A stretch of DNA of 64,000 nucleotides from NCBI RefSeq assembly GCF_900111275.1, contig NZ_FOGR01000005.1, forward strand, positions 186,001 through 250,000. Direction: 5' to 3'. The notes under the pieces were generated by a model. The model saw nothing but the letters and a program-made list of their open reading frames with translations. It was not told the DNA's origin and made no database searches. A program made the translations under genes and the position numbers. This DNA is from Rhizobium sp. NFR03 (GTDB lineage Bacteria; Pseudomonadota; Alphaproteobacteria; Rhizobiales; Rhizobiaceae). Each line of letters starts with the position of its first letter. Position 1 is the first letter of the stretch. Positions 35,867 to 44,786 of the stretch are shown one piece after another.

Positions 35867-36520
35867 ATGAGCCTCACCGACAATCGTTGCCGCCTCGTCC
35901 TCATCGTTCCCGATATTGCCGATGCCACGGAGCGCGCCCGAATCGTCGGCGACGCCCTCAAGGGAGGCGATGTCGCCTCCGTCATCGTGCCGCAATACGG
36001 GCTAGACGACCAGACCTTCCAGAAGCATGCGGAAGCGCTCGTTCCGATCATTCAGGACGCCGGCGCCGCGGCGCTCGTGGCGGGCGATACCCGCGTTGCC
36101 GGGCGGGTTCGTGCCGACGGCCTGCACGTCGAGGGCAACCATGAAGCGATGAGCGAGGCGATCGAAAAATTCTCCCCGAAGCTGATCGTCGGCGGCGGGA
36201 ATGCGGCCGACCGGCACCACGCGCTCGAGATCGGCGAGGCCAAGCCCGATTATATCTTCTTTGGCAAGCTGAACGGAGACATCAAGCCGGAGGCGCACGG
36301 GAAGAATGTGGCGCTGGGCGAGTGGTGGTCGTCGATGATCGAAATCCCCTGCATCGTCATGGGCGGTGCCGAGCCCGCGTCTGCTCTGGTGGTCGCGGAA
36401 AGCGGCGCCGAATTCGTTGCGCTTCATCGGGCGGTTTTCGAGGTGCCGGAGCGGGCTGCCGCTGTCGTTGCGGAGGTCAATGCGCTGCTTGACGAAAAAG
36501 CGCCACGGTTTGACGCTTAA
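35867..36520 (+). CDS. Thiamine phosphate synthase-like protein
   Basis: 217 residues of TIM-barrel ThiE type: LVLIVPDIADATERAR at the start, ADGLHVEGNHEAM, KLIVGGGNAADRHHALEIGE and the end SGAEFVALHRAVFEVP. ThiE couples the hydroxymethylpyrimidine diphosphate and thiazole phosphate. However, the usual pyrophosphate-binding segment is replaced (FFGKLNGDIKPEAHGKN), so the reaction is not certain. GGAG precedes the ATG at 35867. The Sel1 gene begins eight bases after the stop, on the same strand. Confidence 0.8.
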   Translation: MSLTDNRCRLVLIVPDIADATERARIVGDALKGGDVASVIVPQYGLDDQTFQKHAEALVPIIQDAGAAALVAGDTRVAGRVRADGLHVEGNHEAMSEAIEKFSPKLIVGGGNAADRHHALEIGEAKPDYIFFGKLNGDIKPEAHGKNVALGEWWSSMIEIPCIVMGGAEPASALVVAESGAEFVALHRAVFEVPERAAAVVAEVNALLDEKAPRFDA

Positions 36521-36528
36521 GACCGGAT

Positions 36529-37752
36529 ATGCTGGATCGTTTGCCCCGTCTCTGCCTTTTTTCCGCTGCTCTGTTCTCGGCGAGCCTTGCCACCCTGACA
36601 GCGCGTGCGCAGGATGCGCTCCCCGGCGTCGAACCCGACACCGTCGTCGTAGCCCCGGCCGAGACGTCGCCCCCACCTGAGCCAGACGCCGGTGCTCAGA
36701 CGACGACAGGCGAAGCCGGCGTGGCGGCCAAGCGCGGTCGGATCACACCGTTCAATGGTGCGGCACTTCCGGAAAATGAAATTCCTGCACTGCGGCGCCC
36801 GGGCGGCGAGGCGAAGCCGGCCGATGGCAAGATCGCGCCGTCTGGCGGGGTCAATGTGCTGGAGCGCATGGGCGTGGCGCTTCCCGCGCTTCCGGCGGAA
36901 AAGCCTTTCGAGGGCAAGGCCGATGATGCCTATGGCGCGTTTCAACGCGGCTATTATCTCACGGCCATGGAGCTTGCCCTGCCACGCGCGCAACTGGGCG
37001 ACGCTTCGGCACAGACGCTGGTCGCGGAGATTTTCGCGCAGGGGCTCGGCGTCCCGCGCAAGCCGAAGGACGCAGCCTTCTGGTACGGGCAGGCCGCGGC
37101 CGCCGGCGATCCCTCCGCCATGTTCAAATATGCGATCCTCCTGATGGAGGGGCGGGACGTGCCGCGTGACAAGGCCCGCTCCGAAGAGCTCATGAAAAAG
37201 GCGGCCGACCGCGGCAATGCTTCCGCCCAGTTCAATTATGCCCAGTTGCTCGTGGCCGACCAGCCGGGGCAGGCCGGGCTGAAGGCGGCGCTTCCCTATT
37301 ACGAGAACTCCGCCAGCCAGGGCATCGCGGATGCGCAATATGCACTGTCGCAAATCTATCTGAATGTCGATGGCATTCCCGACGACAAGCGCGCGCGGGC
37401 GCGGGAATGGCTGTTGCGGGCGGCGGCGGCCGGGGTCGATACGGCTCAGCTCGATGCCGGCATCTGGCTCGTGGACGGGGTCGGCGGCAGCCGCAATCTC
37501 GAACAGGGTTTCCGCTGGATGCTGCGCGCGGCAAATGCCGGCAACGTCGTCGCACAGAACAAGCTTTCGCACCTCTATATCAATGCCATCGGCACCCGGC
37601 CCAATCCTGTGGAGGCGGCGAAATGGTATGTGCTTTCGCGCCGCGCCGGCCTGAAGGATGATGACCTCGAAGACTTCTACCTCGGCATCGGCGAAGCTCA
37701 ACAAAAGGCAGCCCGCGAGGCGGCGAACCGTTTTCGCGCCGTGCGTGGCTGA
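36529..37752 (+). CDS. Exported Sel1-repeat protein
   Basis: 407 residues. A signal peptide ends near TARAQ (about 28). Residues 30-120 are Pro/Gly-rich and probably disordered. From about 130 on there are at least five Sel1-like repeats of some 36 residues, with the A-x-x-x-Y/L-G-x-x-A pattern: AQTLVAEIFAQGLGVPR, AMFKYAILLMEGRDVPR, AQYALSQIYLNVDGIP, AQNKLSHLYINAIGTR. Sel1 proteins are scaffolds in signalling and envelope assembly. It follows the ThiE-like gene by eight bases and precedes the monophosphatase. Confidence 0.88.
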   Translation: MLDRLPRLCLFSAALFSASLATLTARAQDALPGVEPDTVVVAPAETSPPPEPDAGAQTTTGEAGVAAKRGRITPFNGAALPENEIPALRRPGGEAKPADGKIAPSGGVNVLERMGVALPALPAEKPFEGKADDAYGAFQRGYYLTAMELALPRAQLGDASAQTLVAEIFAQGLGVPRKPKDAAFWYGQAAAAGDPSAMFKYAILLMEGRDVPRDKARSEELMKKAADRGNASAQFNYAQLLVADQPGQAGLKAALPYYENSASQGIADAQYALSQIYLNVDGIPDDKRARAREWLLRAAAAGVDTAQLDAGIWLVDGVGGSRNLEQGFRWMLRAANAGNVVAQNKLSHLYINAIGTRPNPVEAAKWYVLSRRAGLKDDDLEDFYLGIGEAQQKAAREAANRFRAVRG

Positions 37753-37972: not shown

Positions 37973-38773
37973 ATGGCCCGTTCCGCCCTTCTCAACGTCA
38001 TGGTTCAGGCCGCCTTCAAGGCCGGCAAGTCGTTGTCCCGCGATTTCGGCGAGGTGCAGAACCTGCAGGTTTCCATGAAAGGGCCGGGCGACTATGTGTC
38101 GCAGGCCGATCGCAAGGCTGAGAAGATTGTCCGCGAAGAGCTGATGAAGGCCCGGCCGACCTATGGCTATCTCGGCGAGGATGGCGACGAGGTCGAAGGC
38201 AGCGACGGCGCGCATCGCTGGATCGTCGATACGCTCGACGGCGCCGCTAACTTCCTGCACGGCATCCCGCATTTCGCCATTTCCATCGCGCTGGAGCGTC
38301 AGGGCGAGATCGTGACGGCCGTTATCCTCAACCCCGCGACGGACGAACTCTACACGGCCGAACGCGGCGGCGGGGCATTCCTCAACGATCGTCGCCTGCG
38401 CGTCGCCGCACGCCGTAGCCTGGCGGAGGCCGTCATCTCCTCAGGCACGCCGTTTCTCGGCCGCGGCCATCACGGCAATTACCTCATCGAATTGCGCCAT
38501 GTCATGGGCGAAGTTGCCGGCGTGCGCAGCCTCGGCTCGCCATCCCTGGCGCTGGCCTATGTCGCAGCCGGCCGGTTCGACGGCTATTGGGAGCGCGGCC
38601 TGATGCCGTGGGATCTGGCAGCCGGCACCTTGATGGTGCGCGAGGCAGGCGGCTGGATCGCCGATATCGACGGCGGCAACAAGCCGATCGAGGACGGCTC
38701 AATCATCGCCGGCAACGAATATATCCGCAAGGCGCTGCACGAGGTTCTGCATCGCCCCATGCCGGGCAAGTAA
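37973..38773 (+). CDS. Inositol monophosphatase family protein, SuhB-like
   Basis: 266 residues. Metal-binding motif 1 is WIVDTLDGAANFLHGIPHF and motif 2 is WDLAAGTLMVREAGGW; GEDGDEVEG supplies the third acidic site. It should be a Mg-dependent, Li-sensitive phosphatase of inositol phosphate or related sugar phosphates; SuhB of E. coli also acts in rRNA antitermination. AGGA lies nine bases before the ATG at 37973, after an intrinsic terminator. N-terminal open frame upstream is rejected on that ground. Confidence 0.92.
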   Translation: MARSALLNVMVQAAFKAGKSLSRDFGEVQNLQVSMKGPGDYVSQADRKAEKIVREELMKARPTYGYLGEDGDEVEGSDGAHRWIVDTLDGAANFLHGIPHFAISIALERQGEIVTAVILNPATDELYTAERGGGAFLNDRRLRVAARRSLAEAVISSGTPFLGRGHHGNYLIELRHVMGEVAGVRSLGSPSLALAYVAAGRFDGYWERGLMPWDLAAGTLMVREAGGWIADIDGGNKPIEDGSIIAGNEYIRKALHEVLHRPMPGK

Positions 38774-39015: not shown

Positions 39016-40098
39016 ATGGCGAAACTGACATTGTCTGGCTGGGATGCGGAGCAGGGCGGGGACTACAATCCGAACAAGCTGACGAGCCCCATGGTGTTCT
39101 TCTGGACCATGGTGATCTTCCTCATCATCGTCGGCTTTGTCGGCGCCATCCTGTTCCGGCAGGCGCACGCCGCCTTTCTCAGCAATCCCGGTCTGAACGG
39201 GCTGATCCTTGGCGTTCTGCTGATCGGCATCCTTCTCGTGTTCACCCATGTTCTGGCCCTCCGGCCGGAGGTGCGCTGGTTCAACAGCTTCCGCGCTGCC
39301 GGCAGCGCCGACAAGGTCGGGCGCGATCCCGTGCTGCTCGCCCCTATGAGGGCCCTCATCGGCAAGCGGCATTCGATGGCGATCTCCACCGCCGCGCTCC
39401 GCTCCATTCTCGACAGTATCGCAACGCGCCTCGATGAATCGCGCGACACGTCGCGCTATCTCATCGGCCTTCTCGTCTTTCTCGGTCTGCTCGGCACCTT
39501 CTGGGGCCTGCTCGGCACCATCGGCTCCATCAACACCGTCATCCAGTCGCTGGATGCGGGCAGCGGCGGCACGGAAGACGTGCTGTCTGCGCTGAAGACC
39601 GGCCTTTCCGCGCCGCTAACCGGCATGGGCACCGCCTTCTCCACCTCGCTCTTCGGCCTTGCAAGCTCGCTGGTTCTCGGCTTCCTCGATCTGCAGGCCG
39701 GCCGGGCGCAGAGCCGCTTTTATACCGAACTTGAAAACTGGCTGTCCTCCGTGACCGATGTCAGCTCGGATGTGAACGTGCGGTCCGACGTCACCGCCGG
39801 TGATCGCTCCGAAGACCTTCGGCTTCTCGCGGAGGAACTCAGCCGCATGACGCAGGAGGGTGGCGGCACCAGCCAGCGTACGACGGCGGCCATAGCGAGC
39901 CTTGCCGAGGGCATTCAGGGGTTGGTGAAGAACATGCGTGGCGAGCAGCAGATGCTGCGAGACTGGATCGAGGCCCAGCAGGAAGAGGCGCGGTCCATGC
40001 GCCGTACCCTCGACAAGCTCGCAGCGCGGCTGTCGGACAATGACAGGAAGTCTCTGCCGACGCCGCGGCGCGCGAGCGAAGAGACGGGACAGGACTGA
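39016..40098 (+). CDS. MotA/TolQ/ExbB-like proton-channel protein
   Basis: 360 residues. Two N-terminal membrane helices (about 25-48 and 60-82), then a cytoplasmic loop, then the paired channel helices YLIGLLVFLGLLGTFWGLLGT and PLTGMGTAFSTSLFGLASSLVLG with the small-residue faces of MotA/ExbB. The last 130 residues are polar with coiled-coil tendency. It is neither flagellar MotA nor TolQ by length or context. The partner OmpA-domain gene starts one base after its stop. It probably forms the pentameric subunit of an ion-driven envelope motor. Confidence 0.88.
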   Translation: MAKLTLSGWDAEQGGDYNPNKLTSPMVFFWTMVIFLIIVGFVGAILFRQAHAAFLSNPGLNGLILGVLLIGILLVFTHVLALRPEVRWFNSFRAAGSADKVGRDPVLLAPMRALIGKRHSMAISTAALRSILDSIATRLDESRDTSRYLIGLLVFLGLLGTFWGLLGTIGSINTVIQSLDAGSGGTEDVLSALKTGLSAPLTGMGTAFSTSLFGLASSLVLGFLDLQAGRAQSRFYTELENWLSSVTDVSSDVNVRSDVTAGDRSEDLRLLAEELSRMTQEGGGTSQRTTAAIASLAEGIQGLVKNMRGEQQMLRDWIEAQQEEARSMRRTLDKLAARLSDNDRKSLPTPRRASEETGQD

Positions 40099-40099
40099 G

Positions 40100-41131
40100 A
40101 TGGCGCTCGGACGCAGGGGTCGCCACCAGCGCACCGTGGATTATTGGCCCGGTTTCGTCGATGCTCTGTCGACGCTGCTGCTCGCCATCATGTTTCTGCT
40201 CTCCGTCTTCGTGATGGCACAGTTCCTCCTCAGCCGCGAAATCAGCGGCAAGGATGAGGTGCTGACGCGACTGAACAGCCAGATCAACGAGTTGACCCAA
40301 CTCCTGGCGCTGGAAAAGAGCGGCAAGCAGGACCTGGAAGATTCGCTCGCCAATCTGCAGGCTTCACTTGCGACATCGGAGGGCGAGCGCTCGCGGCTGC
40401 AATCCCTGCTCGCACAGGGGAGCGGCAGTTCGGCTGCGGCAGACCAGCGTATCGGCGACCTCACCGGAAAGCTGGAGGCCGAACAGCAGGCGAGTGGTCG
40501 CGCCATGAGCCAGATCGACCTGCTCAATCAGCAGATTGCCGCGCTGCGCAGCCAGATCGCCGCTATCGAGAGCGCTCTTCAGGCGTCCGAGGCGCGAGAT
40601 GCCACGTCCCAGACCAAGATCGCCGACCTTGGCCGGCGCCTCAACGTGGCACTGGCCCAGCGTGTGCAGGAGCTCAATCGCTACCGGTCCGATTTCTTCG
40701 GACGCCTTCGCGAGATCCTGTCGGACCGGGAAAACATCCGCATCGTCGGCGACCGTTTCGTCTTCCAGTCGGAAGTGCTGTTTCCCTCAGGCGGCAACGA
40801 GCTGAACCCCGCAGGGCAGGAGGAGATGGCGAAGCTCGCAATGGCGCTCCTCGATCTCGCCAAGGAAATTCCGGCGGAGATCAACTGGGTGCTGCGGGTC
40901 GATGGTCATACCGACAACGTGCCACTGTCGGGCTCCGGTCGCTATGTCGACAATTGGGAACTTTCGTCGGCACGCGCGACGTCTGTCGTGAAGTACCTCA
41001 TATCCAAGGGTGTTCCCCCCGGCCGTCTGGTCGCTGCCGGCTTCGGTGAGTTCCAGCCGATCGCCGAGGGCGACACGAAGGAAGCCCGCGACCAGAACCG
41101 GCGGATCGAGCTGAAGCTGACGGAGAAATAG
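40100..41131 (+). CDS. MotB/OmpA-like peptidoglycan-binding protein with coiled coil
   Basis: 343 residues. A short cytoplasmic tail, then one membrane helix containing Asp21 in WPGFVDALSTLLLAIMFLL, the position of the ion-accepting Asp of MotB. Residues about 50-200 form a long coiled coil with heptads of Leu, Gln and Ala. The C-terminal OmpA domain (about 215-343) has the peptidoglycan-binding HTDNVPLSG and NWELSSARATSVV, plus NRRIELKL. It makes a stator pair with the MotA-like gene one base upstream. No tolA, pal or flagellar gene is near. Confidence 0.9.
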   Translation: MALGRRGRHQRTVDYWPGFVDALSTLLLAIMFLLSVFVMAQFLLSREISGKDEVLTRLNSQINELTQLLALEKSGKQDLEDSLANLQASLATSEGERSRLQSLLAQGSGSSAAADQRIGDLTGKLEAEQQASGRAMSQIDLLNQQIAALRSQIAAIESALQASEARDATSQTKIADLGRRLNVALAQRVQELNRYRSDFFGRLREILSDRENIRIVGDRFVFQSEVLFPSGGNELNPAGQEEMAKLAMALLDLAKEIPAEINWVLRVDGHTDNVPLSGSGRYVDNWELSSARATSVVKYLISKGVPPGRLVAAGFGEFQPIAEGDTKEARDQNRRIELKLTEK

Positions 41132-42514: not shown

Positions 42515-44317
42515 TCAGAGGTTGGCGACGTTCAGCCCTTGAGCGCCATGATCGAACTGAAGCCGTGCCAGACGCGCATAGAGGCCACCCTGGCGCACCA
42601 GCGAGGCATGGGTACCGTCTTCCACGATGCGTCCCTGATCCATGACAAGAATGCGGTCCGCCTTCAGTACGGTCGCCAGCCGGTGAGCGATGACGAGCGT
42701 CGTGCGCGTGCGTATCAGTCCGTCAAGCGCCGTCTGCACCAGCGTCTCGCTTTCCGCGTCGAGCGCCGAGGTCGCCTCATCGAGCAACAGGACCGGCGCA
42801 TCCTTCAGGATGGCCCGGGCAATGGCAATACGCTGGCGCTGGCCGCCCGAGAGGGTAATGCCACGCTCGCCGACCGGCGTGTCGTAGGCTTCCGGCATGG
42901 CGCGAATGAAGGGATCGGCCTGTGCGGCGATGGCCGCCGCTACGACTGCCTCACGGGTTGCGCCCGGCGTGCCGAAGGCGATGTTCTCGTGGATGGTTGC
43001 GGCAAAGATCGTCACGTCCTGCGGCACGATCGCCACCCTGCCGCGCAAACCGCGCGGCGAGAGATCGCGGATGTCGATGCCATCGAGCCTGACGGTGCCG
43101 CTATCAGGATCGTAGAAGCGCAGGAGCAGTGAAAAGAGTGTGCTCTTGCCGGCGCCCGACGGGCCGACGATCGCAACGGTCTGGCCGGGCTCGACAGCAA
43201 AGCTCAAACCTTTCAGACTCTTTTCGAGCGGGCGCGTGGGATAGGCGAAGTGGACGGCCTCGAACGCGACCCGGCCGATGGCCGGCTGCGGAAGCAGCTG
43301 GGCCTCTGCCGGCTCCGTGATGGCAGGCTGTTCCTGCAGAAGTTCGCTCAGTCGCTCGGCAGCGCCTGCCGCCTGTGAAAGCTCGCCCCAGACTTCCGAA
43401 AGGGCGCCGAGGCTGCCGGCCGCAAAGACGGAGTAGAGCAGGAACTGCCCGAGCGTTCCGGGCGAGATCGTGCCTGAGAGCACATCCTGCGCGCCGAACC
43501 AGAGCACGGCGACGACGCTGCCGAAGATCATGGTGATGGCGAAGGCGGTCAGCGCCGATCGCGCGGTGATTGCGCCGCGCGCGGCCCTGTAGGCGTCTTC
43601 CACCGTGCTGCCGTAGCGCTCCATGGCTGTCGCCTCGCCATTGAAGGCCTGAACGGTGCGGATGGCGCCGATCGCTTCGCTGGCATAGGCCGACGCGCCT
43701 GCGAGCCGGTCCTGCGCCTCGCGCGAGCGGCGGCGGACATTGCGGCCGAAGGCGACGAGCGGAAAGACGATGACGGGTATCGCCATCAGCACGAGGCTCG
43801 ACAGCTTCGGGCTGGTATAGACCATCATCGCGATGGCGCCGAGGCAGAGGATGATGTTGCGCAGGGCAACGGATGCGGTGGCGCCCACCGCCGACTTGAT
43901 CTGCGTGGTGTCGGCCGTCAGCCGCGAGACGATCTCGCCGGACTGGTTGACGTCGAAGAAGGCCGGGGAGAGCCGCGTGATATGGTCGAACACGTCGCGC
44001 CGGATATCGGCCACCACTCGCTCGCCGAGCGTGATGACGAAGAAGTAGCGGCCGGCGCTTGCCAGAGCCAGAACGACGGCGAGCACCATCAGCATGGCGA
44101 AATAGGTGTTGATGAAGGCGCTGTCGGAATTGGAAAATCCATGGTCGATCATGCGGCGCACCGCCAGCGGCAGCGTCAGCGTGGTCAGCGCAGCCGCCAC
44201 GAGACAGACGGCGGCCCCGGCCACCAGACCGCGATAGCGCTTCACATAGGGAAGCAGCCCGGCCAGCGGCCGGACGTTTCGCCTGGTCCCTGCCGCTTTG
44301 TCGTTGTCGATCGCCAC
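42515..44317 (-). CDS. ABC exporter, fused permease and ATPase (MsbA-type)
   Basis: 600 residues. Six membrane helices in the first 320, with FFDVNQSGEIVSRLTADTTQIK the usual coupling region. The ATPase domain has Walker A GPSGAGKST, Q-loop VPQDVTIF, signature LSGGQRQR, Walker B VLLLDEATSALD and switch IAHRL. Homologues export lipids, lipid A precursors or drugs; the substrate here is not clear. A GTG start at 44317 with GGGAGG five bases upstream is preferred over the ATG at 44383. It is divergent from rpmE. Confidence 0.92.
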   Translation of the reverse strand: MAIDNDKAAGTRRNVRPLAGLLPYVKRYRGLVAGAAVCLVAAALTTLTLPLAVRRMIDHGFSNSDSAFINTYFAMLMVLAVVLALASAGRYFFVITLGERVVADIRRDVFDHITRLSPAFFDVNQSGEIVSRLTADTTQIKSAVGATASVALRNIILCLGAIAMMVYTSPKLSSLVLMAIPVIVFPLVAFGRNVRRRSREAQDRLAGASAYASEAIGAIRTVQAFNGEATAMERYGSTVEDAYRAARGAITARSALTAFAITMIFGSVVAVLWFGAQDVLSGTISPGTLGQFLLYSVFAAGSLGALSEVWGELSQAAGAAERLSELLQEQPAITEPAEAQLLPQPAIGRVAFEAVHFAYPTRPLEKSLKGLSFAVEPGQTVAIVGPSGAGKSTLFSLLLRFYDPDSGTVRLDGIDIRDLSPRGLRGRVAIVPQDVTIFAATIHENIAFGTPGATREAVVAAAIAAQADPFIRAMPEAYDTPVGERGITLSGGQRQRIAIARAILKDAPVLLLDEATSALDAESETLVQTALDGLIRTRTTLVIAHRLATVLKADRILVMDQGRIVEDGTHASLVRQGGLYARLARLQFDHGAQGLNVANL

Positions 44318-44564
44318 ACTGCCCTCCCGTCGCCCAACGCTTGGACGAACTATTTCACGCGCCTTGCGGCCAGATCCCGTCATCCGGCTTTGCTGCCGGG
44401 CCTTGCTTATCGGGCCTTGTTATCTCTTGGGCCTTCATGTATAGGCACCGCATCCAATTGAAAAGACGTTGGCCGAAATGCGGTCTGCGGCTTCATTATC
44501 GTGTTCGGTCCCGCAGCCGCAAGTGGTTGCGACAAATGGACCCGGGAACTGCAGGAAGAGTGTT

Positions 44565-44786
44565 ATGAAGGCTGATATCCATCCCGCTTACCACATGATC
44601 AAGGTGGTCATGACCGACGGCACCGAGTACGAGACACGCTCGACCTGGGGCTCCGAAGGCCAGACCATGAACCTTGAAATCGACCCCAAGTCGCACCCGG
44701 CCTGGACCGGCGGCAACCAGCAGCTCATGGACCGCGGCGGCCGCGTCTCCAAGTTCAAGAAGCGCTTCGAAGGCCTCGGCCTCTAG
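44565..44786 (+). CDS. rpmE: 50S ribosomal protein L31
   Basis: 73 residues: [37 protein letters not shown] and [13 protein letters not shown]. It is full length. The four cysteines that bind zinc in classical L31 are absent, so this is a zinc-free form of the long type seen in alphaproteobacteria. AGGAAG precedes the ATG. The first 32 codons of the longer open frame have no L31 similarity and are excluded. An intrinsic terminator follows. Confidence 0.96.

Follow-up and report, generated by a model that had tools for sequence, protein, structure and literature searches.

To which of the known ion-driven membrane motors, if any, does the gene pair at positions 39,016 to 41,131 belong, and what might it do? 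The sequence-only reading had described two genes one base apart, the first (A) with TolQ/MotA-like helices and a polar tail, and the second (B) with an Asp (Asp21) in its sole membrane helix, a coiled coil of about 150 residues, and an intact OmpA domain. This description holds: the stop codon of A occupies 40096-40098 and the ATG of B begins at 40100, leaving a single base between them; A matches Pfam MotA_ExbB and has four membrane helices and a polar helical tail, and the layout of B is borne out by Pfam, the structure model, and a motif found in 117/117 relatives. Table 1 gives the features in coordinates of the window, i.e., the whole 64,000-nucleotide stretch that was analyzed. Among the matches listed, the closest named loci are those of Rhizobium sp. 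PP-CC-3A-592 and Ferranicluibacter rubi, with A 98% identical.

Table 1. Features of the A-B locus and its surroundings; coordinates are those of the window, except in the last row.
Feature	Position	Strand	Basis
thiE-type gene, conserved neighbor	35867..36520	+	Start inferred; neighbor scans
Secreted Sel1-repeat protein	36529..37752	+	Pfam; in 77/80 close loci (best 80 of at least 480)
Inositol-monophosphatase-family gene, directly upstream, conserved neighbor	37973..38773	+	Start inferred; Pfam, neighbor scans
A subunit, MotA/TolQ/ExbB-type channel protein, 360 aa	39016..40098	+	Pfam, ORF, model, fold matches
A, membrane helices 1 and 2 with intervening loop (residues 27-45, 63-81)	39094..39258	+	Hydropathy, model
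A, membrane helices 3 and 4 (residues 149-167, 206-224), with GLLGTF (157-162), Thr161, Ser211	39460..39687	+	Hydropathy, alignment
A, polar helical cytoplasmic tail, residues 236-360	39721..40095	+	Model; topology inferred
B subunit, one-helix OmpA-type partner, 343 aa, NCBIfam PRK09039	40100..41131	+	Pfam, NCBIfam, model
B, Asp21 codon in the single membrane helix	40160..40162	+	Asp in 117/117 relatives; invariant in alignment
B, periplasmic helical stalk, residues 46-207	40235..40720	+	Model; coiled-coil-type matches
B, OmpA-type peptidoglycan-binding domain, residues 227-334	40778..41101	+	Pfam 6e-18, fold matches, Asp272/Arg292
ABC exporter facing the pair, conserved neighbor, retained where A-B is absent	42515..44383	-	Neighbor scans
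rpmE (ribosomal protein L31), end of syntenic block	44565..44786	+	Neighbor scans
Third-protein genes, examples from other genomes	L117:7216-8562, L137:12358-13287, and 28 further distant loci

A scores 22.6 bits against MotA_ExbB (PF01618) in the protein scan, just below the cut-off of 22.9, and 24.8 bits, above it, in the genome search; the latter score and the fold matches place A in the MotA/TolQ/ExbB superfamily. Its four membrane helices were predicted from hydropathy, and the model agrees. GLLGTF is intact in 117/117 relatives, and Thr161 and Ser211, in helices 3 and 4, are invariant among 42 aligned sequences. The tail is of variable length in the alignment, and several relatives have a short one. 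ExbB, TolQ, and type I ZorA tied as the best PDB fold matches (Z 11.4-11.6, rmsd 3.4-4.4 over 190-196 residues); MotA was lower (best Z 9.9), and unrelated helical bundles reached Z 9.5. Foldseek found no match between the A model and the PDB better than E 6.7e-3, and the A profile found no motor chains among PDB sequences, but only coiled-coil or other unrelated chains (best 0.0029). Because Foldseek was weak, the PDB profile was negative, and unrelated bundles came this close, the fold call rests jointly on the Pfam score, the motif, and the top-ranked matches. The modeled fold thus supports the superfamily without choosing among its members; note that the models are of single chains only (pTM 0.64 for A and 0.49 for B). 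Helix number is weak evidence as a clade marker, as the hydropathy scan gave four helices in A and in 2/4 relatives and three in the other two, three in each of this genome's two TolQ/ExbB-type proteins, and also only three, an undercount, in its MotA-like protein (L003).

In the model, the membrane helix of B is continuous with the stalk helix, which extends to about residue 207, some 160 residues past the membrane; at 107-110 it is interrupted by a low-confidence break. Across 116 homologues the stalk measures 112 to 402 residues; as a helix rises by about 0.15 nm per residue, the longest stalks, if straight, would exceed a normal periplasm, and the stalk may thus fold back. Asp21 lies in the context W-[PA]-x-[FYW]-[VI]-D, present in 117/117 relatives; a lack of this Asp in orthologues had been named beforehand as counting against the prediction. 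The GH[TS]D peptidoglycan loop is likewise intact in 117/117, and Asp272 and Arg292 of the peptidoglycan site, residues that we take to be the diaminopimelate binders of OmpA-type domains, are kept in 37/37 distant loci. The OmpA domain (PF00691) has MotB and MotS as fold matches. The TolR/ExbD domain PF02472 is absent among B's 14 Pfam matches down to E 0.1.

The 117 relatives comprise 80 named loci (the best 80 of at least 480) and 37 distant loci. The distant set was hand-picked from the class-search matches, not sampled at random, and originally held 39 loci, of which two (L146 and L150) center on a different OmpA protein, although both genomes have A elsewhere. These two proteins (L146:9086-10474 and L150:9785-10987) are B-like, with a signal-like N-terminus in place of the Asp-bearing helix and no adjoining A, and they outscore the A-adjoining B of their own genomes. 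The order A then B is kept in the 80 named loci (again the best 80 of at least 480) and in the 37 distant ones. With dN/dS values against six relatives of 0.038-0.185 for A and 0.016-0.126 for B, sequence divergence shows both genes to be under purifying selection. Across the class, A was matched in 189/289 alphaproteobacterial genomes at 0.001 or better, and 100 had no match; five weak matches (G032, G089, G094, G204, and G237; 6.6e-11 to 5.2e-38) were dropped, leaving 184 strong ones. With the presence of B set at 4e-27 or better, A is found in 184 of the 289 genomes, B in 183, and both in 182; A occurs alone in two and B alone in one. Near-strict co-occurrence and joint conservation are what a two-subunit complex predicts.

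The presence of A is independent of the flagellar gene fliG, which occurs in 113/184 genomes with A versus 57/105 without (p=0.26); that is, 71 of the 184 A-bearing genomes lack fliG, and 57 fliG-bearing genomes lack A. Among the 21 listed genomes of at most 1.0 Mb, A is present in nine, none of which has fliG, and absent from twelve. Eight of the nine have one other TolQ/ExbB-type match each (TolQ and ExbB were not told apart), so that each of those genomes has two detected members of the motor superfamily, the pair being one; the ninth, without another such match, is 84% complete. A is dispensable in places, since 100/289 genomes of the class and 12/21 small genomes are without it.

The pair sits in a syntenic block with the order thiE, inositol phosphatase, A-B, ABC exporter, and rpmE. 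The 80 named loci (best 80 of at least 480) have the monophosphatase in 78, the ABC exporter in 78, rpmE in 78, the Sel1 gene in 77, and thiE in 76, counted as presence within the fetched stretch; some loci end at contig edges, and the setting of L083 differs. In the distant loci, the monophosphatase is directly upstream of A in 34/37 (this replaces 35/39, a 27% match on the other strand in L126 having been excluded), and thiE was matched in 24/39, the ABC exporter in 25/39 (three of them weak), and rpmE in 23/39. The sequence-only reading had placed only Sel1-repeat and monophosphatase genes upstream, which is true of the immediate neighbors, but thiE comes next and purE/purK lie further up; it had also seen no zorC/D/E, tolA/pal, or flagellar gene nearby, and no Zorya partner, flagellar gene, or tolA was found among the neighbors scanned. 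The neighborhood survey that it proposed as a check showed that the block is syntenic and conserved, and that a third gene is usually part of it in loci outside the order to which this genome belongs. The window neighbors are of unrelated housekeeping families (thiamine synthase, purE/purK, L31, ABC exporter, MFS, and TctC) and give no functional hint. In NCBIfam the Sel1-repeat protein is most similar to MotX of Vibrio stators, with 45.8 bits (4.7e-12) where the cut-off is 330; shared Sel1 repeats are probably all that this reflects. Beyond the window, a TolQ-type gene lies ~33 kb downstream on the same contig.

No match to A was found in 50,697 phage records, and the five found in 72,556 plasmid records are all on replicons of 3.5-4.6 Mb typed as non-mobilizable, which rules out a phage- or plasmid-borne module; taken with the class-wide synteny, this is core-genome behavior. 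The plasmid-labeled record CP090106.1 (L263) is titled Sinorhizobium (S.) meliloti Ak57 pSymB, is 3.7 Mb long, and carries rpmE, purE, and the A-B block; its plasmid label is perhaps a slip, as these are genes expected on the chromosome. In a phylum sample of 299 genomes, A was matched in 83, and all matches at 1e-53 or better are in the class save those in G347, G409, G443, G424, and G547. Four of these five genomes were fetched (G347, G409, G424, and G547), and in each B adjoins A; their A sequences are nested among alphaproteobacterial ones in the tree, which suggests that the pair was acquired outside the class by lateral transfer. The sample held 11 further matches (6.4e-9 to 1.6e-17) with long open frames, eight of which were scanned and were all ZorA3, and eight more (1e-5 to 1e-3), all from family f171, of which three were placed in the tree. 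The four fetched loci (L186, L187, L188, and L189) are A-B pairs without the syntenic neighbors, and the A frames of G347 and G409 are unusually short, at 268 and 252 aa. A divergent arrangement was seen in G534 (L193, 9093-11633): the B-like gene comes first and is followed by an A-like open frame that is much longer (573 aa).

In 30/37 distant A-B loci, A is directly preceded by the third gene, which reads in the same direction. Its product begins with a signal-like N-terminus, continues with a long Pro/Ala-rich region, and ends in an OmpA-type domain (for the two proteins tested, Pfam gave 4e-12 and 6e-11), and many copies have a short motif of about V-x-V-[DN]-x-x-A-L after the signal-like region. 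At the peptidoglycan site the Arg is kept in 21/21 copies and the Asp in only 4/21, whereas B keeps both in 37/37; with the Asp mostly lost, wall binding by the third protein is probably altered. It was detected in 160/289 class genomes, 124 with A and 36 without, at a limit of 1e-13 that was set after the results from this genome's own order and near which matches are uncertain, as both domains are of the OmpA type. An obligate partnership with A-B is weakened by those 36 of 160 genomes. Of nine third-gene loci without A, six keep two or more of the block neighbors; of the rest, one has the monophosphatase only, one is at a contig end, and one has only a weak ABC match. The third gene and A-B thus seem to be long-standing members of a single locus, each of which can be lost without the other. 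The 61 genomes of this organism's order contain no clear copy (58 have some match at 1e-3, the best being 1.5e-13), while in other orders the best matches go down to 6e-45. A copy moved elsewhere was also sought in this genome and was not found; the best match, 1.2e-6, lies ~4 kb from a TolQ-type gene and is probably Pal.

In a tree built from 106 sequences (201 columns), a branch with an ultrafast bootstrap of 97 isolates all members of the A family. Across that branch lie ZorA3, other ZorA-like sequences (twelve unclassified loci from the ZorA2 search, which gave many weak matches), the TolQ/ExbB type, the three f171 sequences, and the MotA-like protein L003, the sole MotA representative. 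The joins among the groups outside the A family have support of 37-67, and we therefore do not claim that A is sister to Zorya. By these comparisons of sequence, A is separate from ZorA, from TolQ/ExbB, and from the one MotA-like protein included. TolQR/ExbBD is ruled out as an identity, as B has an OmpA domain and no PF02472, and A falls across the 97% branch from TolQ/ExbB.

We are moderately confident that A and B form an ion-driven, wall-anchored motor of the inner membrane with a housekeeping task in the alphaproteobacterial envelope, its mechanism being drawn by homology, and the best reading is that this motor is distinct from the Tol, Ton, flagellar, and Zorya motors. In ZorAB and MotAB, according to the available part of PMC11890865, a critical Asp packs against a Ser/Thr ring from the A subunits, and residues expected of a 5:2 motor are present here: B has the Asp in its membrane helix, and helices 3 and 4 of A carry polar residues. 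By homology, we infer that five A subunits would surround two B helices and that the passage of ions along Asp21 and these polar residues would turn A relative to B. The OmpA domain at the end of the stalk would tie B to peptidoglycan, so that torque might act on the wall or, through the cytoplasmic tail of A, on a cytoplasmic partner; where present, the secreted Pro-rich OmpA-like protein may be a periplasmic partner. The wall anchor leads us to favor an envelope task, as does the retention of the pair, alongside a single TolQ/ExbB-type gene, in eight small genomes that lack fliG.

The same parts could instead make a gated ion channel that senses strain on, or damage to, the wall: B, bound to strained peptidoglycan, would open A, and the tail would signal, with no force delivered. 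The predicted continuity of the B helix from membrane into stalk and the modeled helical tail of A would suit this, and opening triggered by the wall is suggested for ZorAB in the available part of PMC11890865; the authors there also propose rotation after opening, however, such that the two readings overlap. No effector-like gene was seen conserved beside the pair in the locus scans, and the A tail differs in length among relatives, several of which have a short one; we consider a sensor unlikely. Less likely again is that the pair energizes a transporter, as SiiAB does for type I secretion, with the facing ABC exporter as its client. The exporter does accompany the pair in 78/80 close loci (best 80 of at least 480) and 25/39 distant ones (three weak), but it is on the opposite strand and stays in five of the nine loci without A-B, as plain synteny would have it.

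An anti-phage Zorya system, or its remnant, has in its favor that the best matches in the PADLOC defense-model search are ZorA3 for A (1e-15) and ZorB3 for B (3.9e-27), that the top fold matches include type I ZorA, and that both have the Asp and the OmpA domain. Yet A scores only 55 bits against the best ZorA3 model, where eight genuine ZorA3 proteins score 785-1225, is 360 aa long versus 697-1116 aa, and reaches 17.0 and 15.7 bits with the NCBIfam ZorA models, whose cut-offs are 100 and 500. No Zorya partner was found among ten neighbors (PADLOC, 1e-5); only the ABC exporter gave a match, to mad3, an ATPase model. Membership of A-B in Zorya is thus ruled out by the ZorA3 scores, the tree, and the absent partner genes; with the class-wide synteny and the lack of a match in phage records also against it, we regard a defense system or remnant as highly improbable. 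A second flagellar stator or flagellar accessory seems the least probable reading, although a four-helix A with an OmpA-type B is MotAB-like: the fliG counts given above led us to reject a flagellar stator, L003, another PF01618 gene of this genome, reads as MotA, and no flagellar gene was found among the window neighbors scanned. Thus, the suggested profile search against ZorA/ZorB, MotA/MotB, and TolQ/TolR placed the pair in none of the three clades by scores, domains, tree, or fliG; clear assignment to a known TolQR, Zorya, or flagellar clade, the other outcome named in advance as overturning the prediction, was not obtained, and the earlier view of a stator-type pair unassignable to TolQR/ExbBD, Zorya, or the flagellar stator stands.

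Our search of the open-licence literature, which leaves most subscription journals outside its scope, found no study or described function of the A-B pair, in agreement with the earlier statement that its task in rhizobia appears undescribed, although the family extends across the Alphaproteobacteria and is not a rhizobial one. The available main text of PMC5929573 makes no mention of MotA, TolQ, or rpmE. The pair is already catalogued, however: B is known as NCBIfam PRK09039 (PRK09039.1-3; 671.7 bits against a cut-off of 362, over residues 1-343 of 343), an entry displayed with the name 'peptidoglycan -binding protein' and without a function, and an S. meliloti record annotates A as 'MotA/TolQ/ExbB proton channel family protein' and B as 'peptidoglycan -binding protein'. 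The available text of PMC12505986 describes non-flagellar ('GIT') B subunits as being without the OmpA-homologous wall-binding part of the flagellar ones; a widespread non-flagellar B with a full OmpA domain is an exception to that generalization as worded there. Should A-B prove to work as a motor, then the majority of Alphaproteobacteria, whose envelope biology differs from that of E. coli, would possess an ion-driven machine anchored in the wall of which we found no study. The pair also offers a non-defense comparator for the Zorya motor. More tentatively, and with considerable doubt on our part, A-B could be a further housekeeping motor, next to Tol and Ton, that Alphaproteobacteria inherited and that ancestrally had three parts (the secreted Pro-rich OmpA-like protein, A, and B), and the Zorya motor may have been recruited from such a four-helix, OmpA-anchored motor.

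The ion-driven motors listed in the available part of PMC12204202 are MotAB, PomAB, LafTU, AglRQS, ZorAB, SiiAB, TolQR, and ExbBD, and the A-B pair was not seen in that list. With MotAB, PomAB, and MotPS the pair has in common a related A fold and an OmpA-type wall anchor, but it has no link to flagellar genes or fliG, and the stalk of B is predicted to be long, helical, and continuous with the membrane helix. TolQR and ExbBD provide top fold matches of A and have the motif G-L-[LF]-G-T-x-W-G in common with it; no TolA or TonB gene was seen beside A-B, however, and this genome has separate TolQ/ExbB-type genes. SiiAB, the energizer of Salmonella type I secretion, was compared by description only and is alike in that an ABC exporter is nearby, but at the A-B locus the exporter faces the pair and persists where the pair is absent. 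Zorya type III (ZorA3/ZorB3) resembles the pair in its four predicted A helices (in 3/3 ZorA3 tested), a cytoplasmic extension, the order A then B, and a match to the B profile in 11/11 loci, whereas ZorA3 has some two to three times the length of A and is on a separate side of the tree, and A-B resides in a syntenic housekeeping locus without a defense partner.
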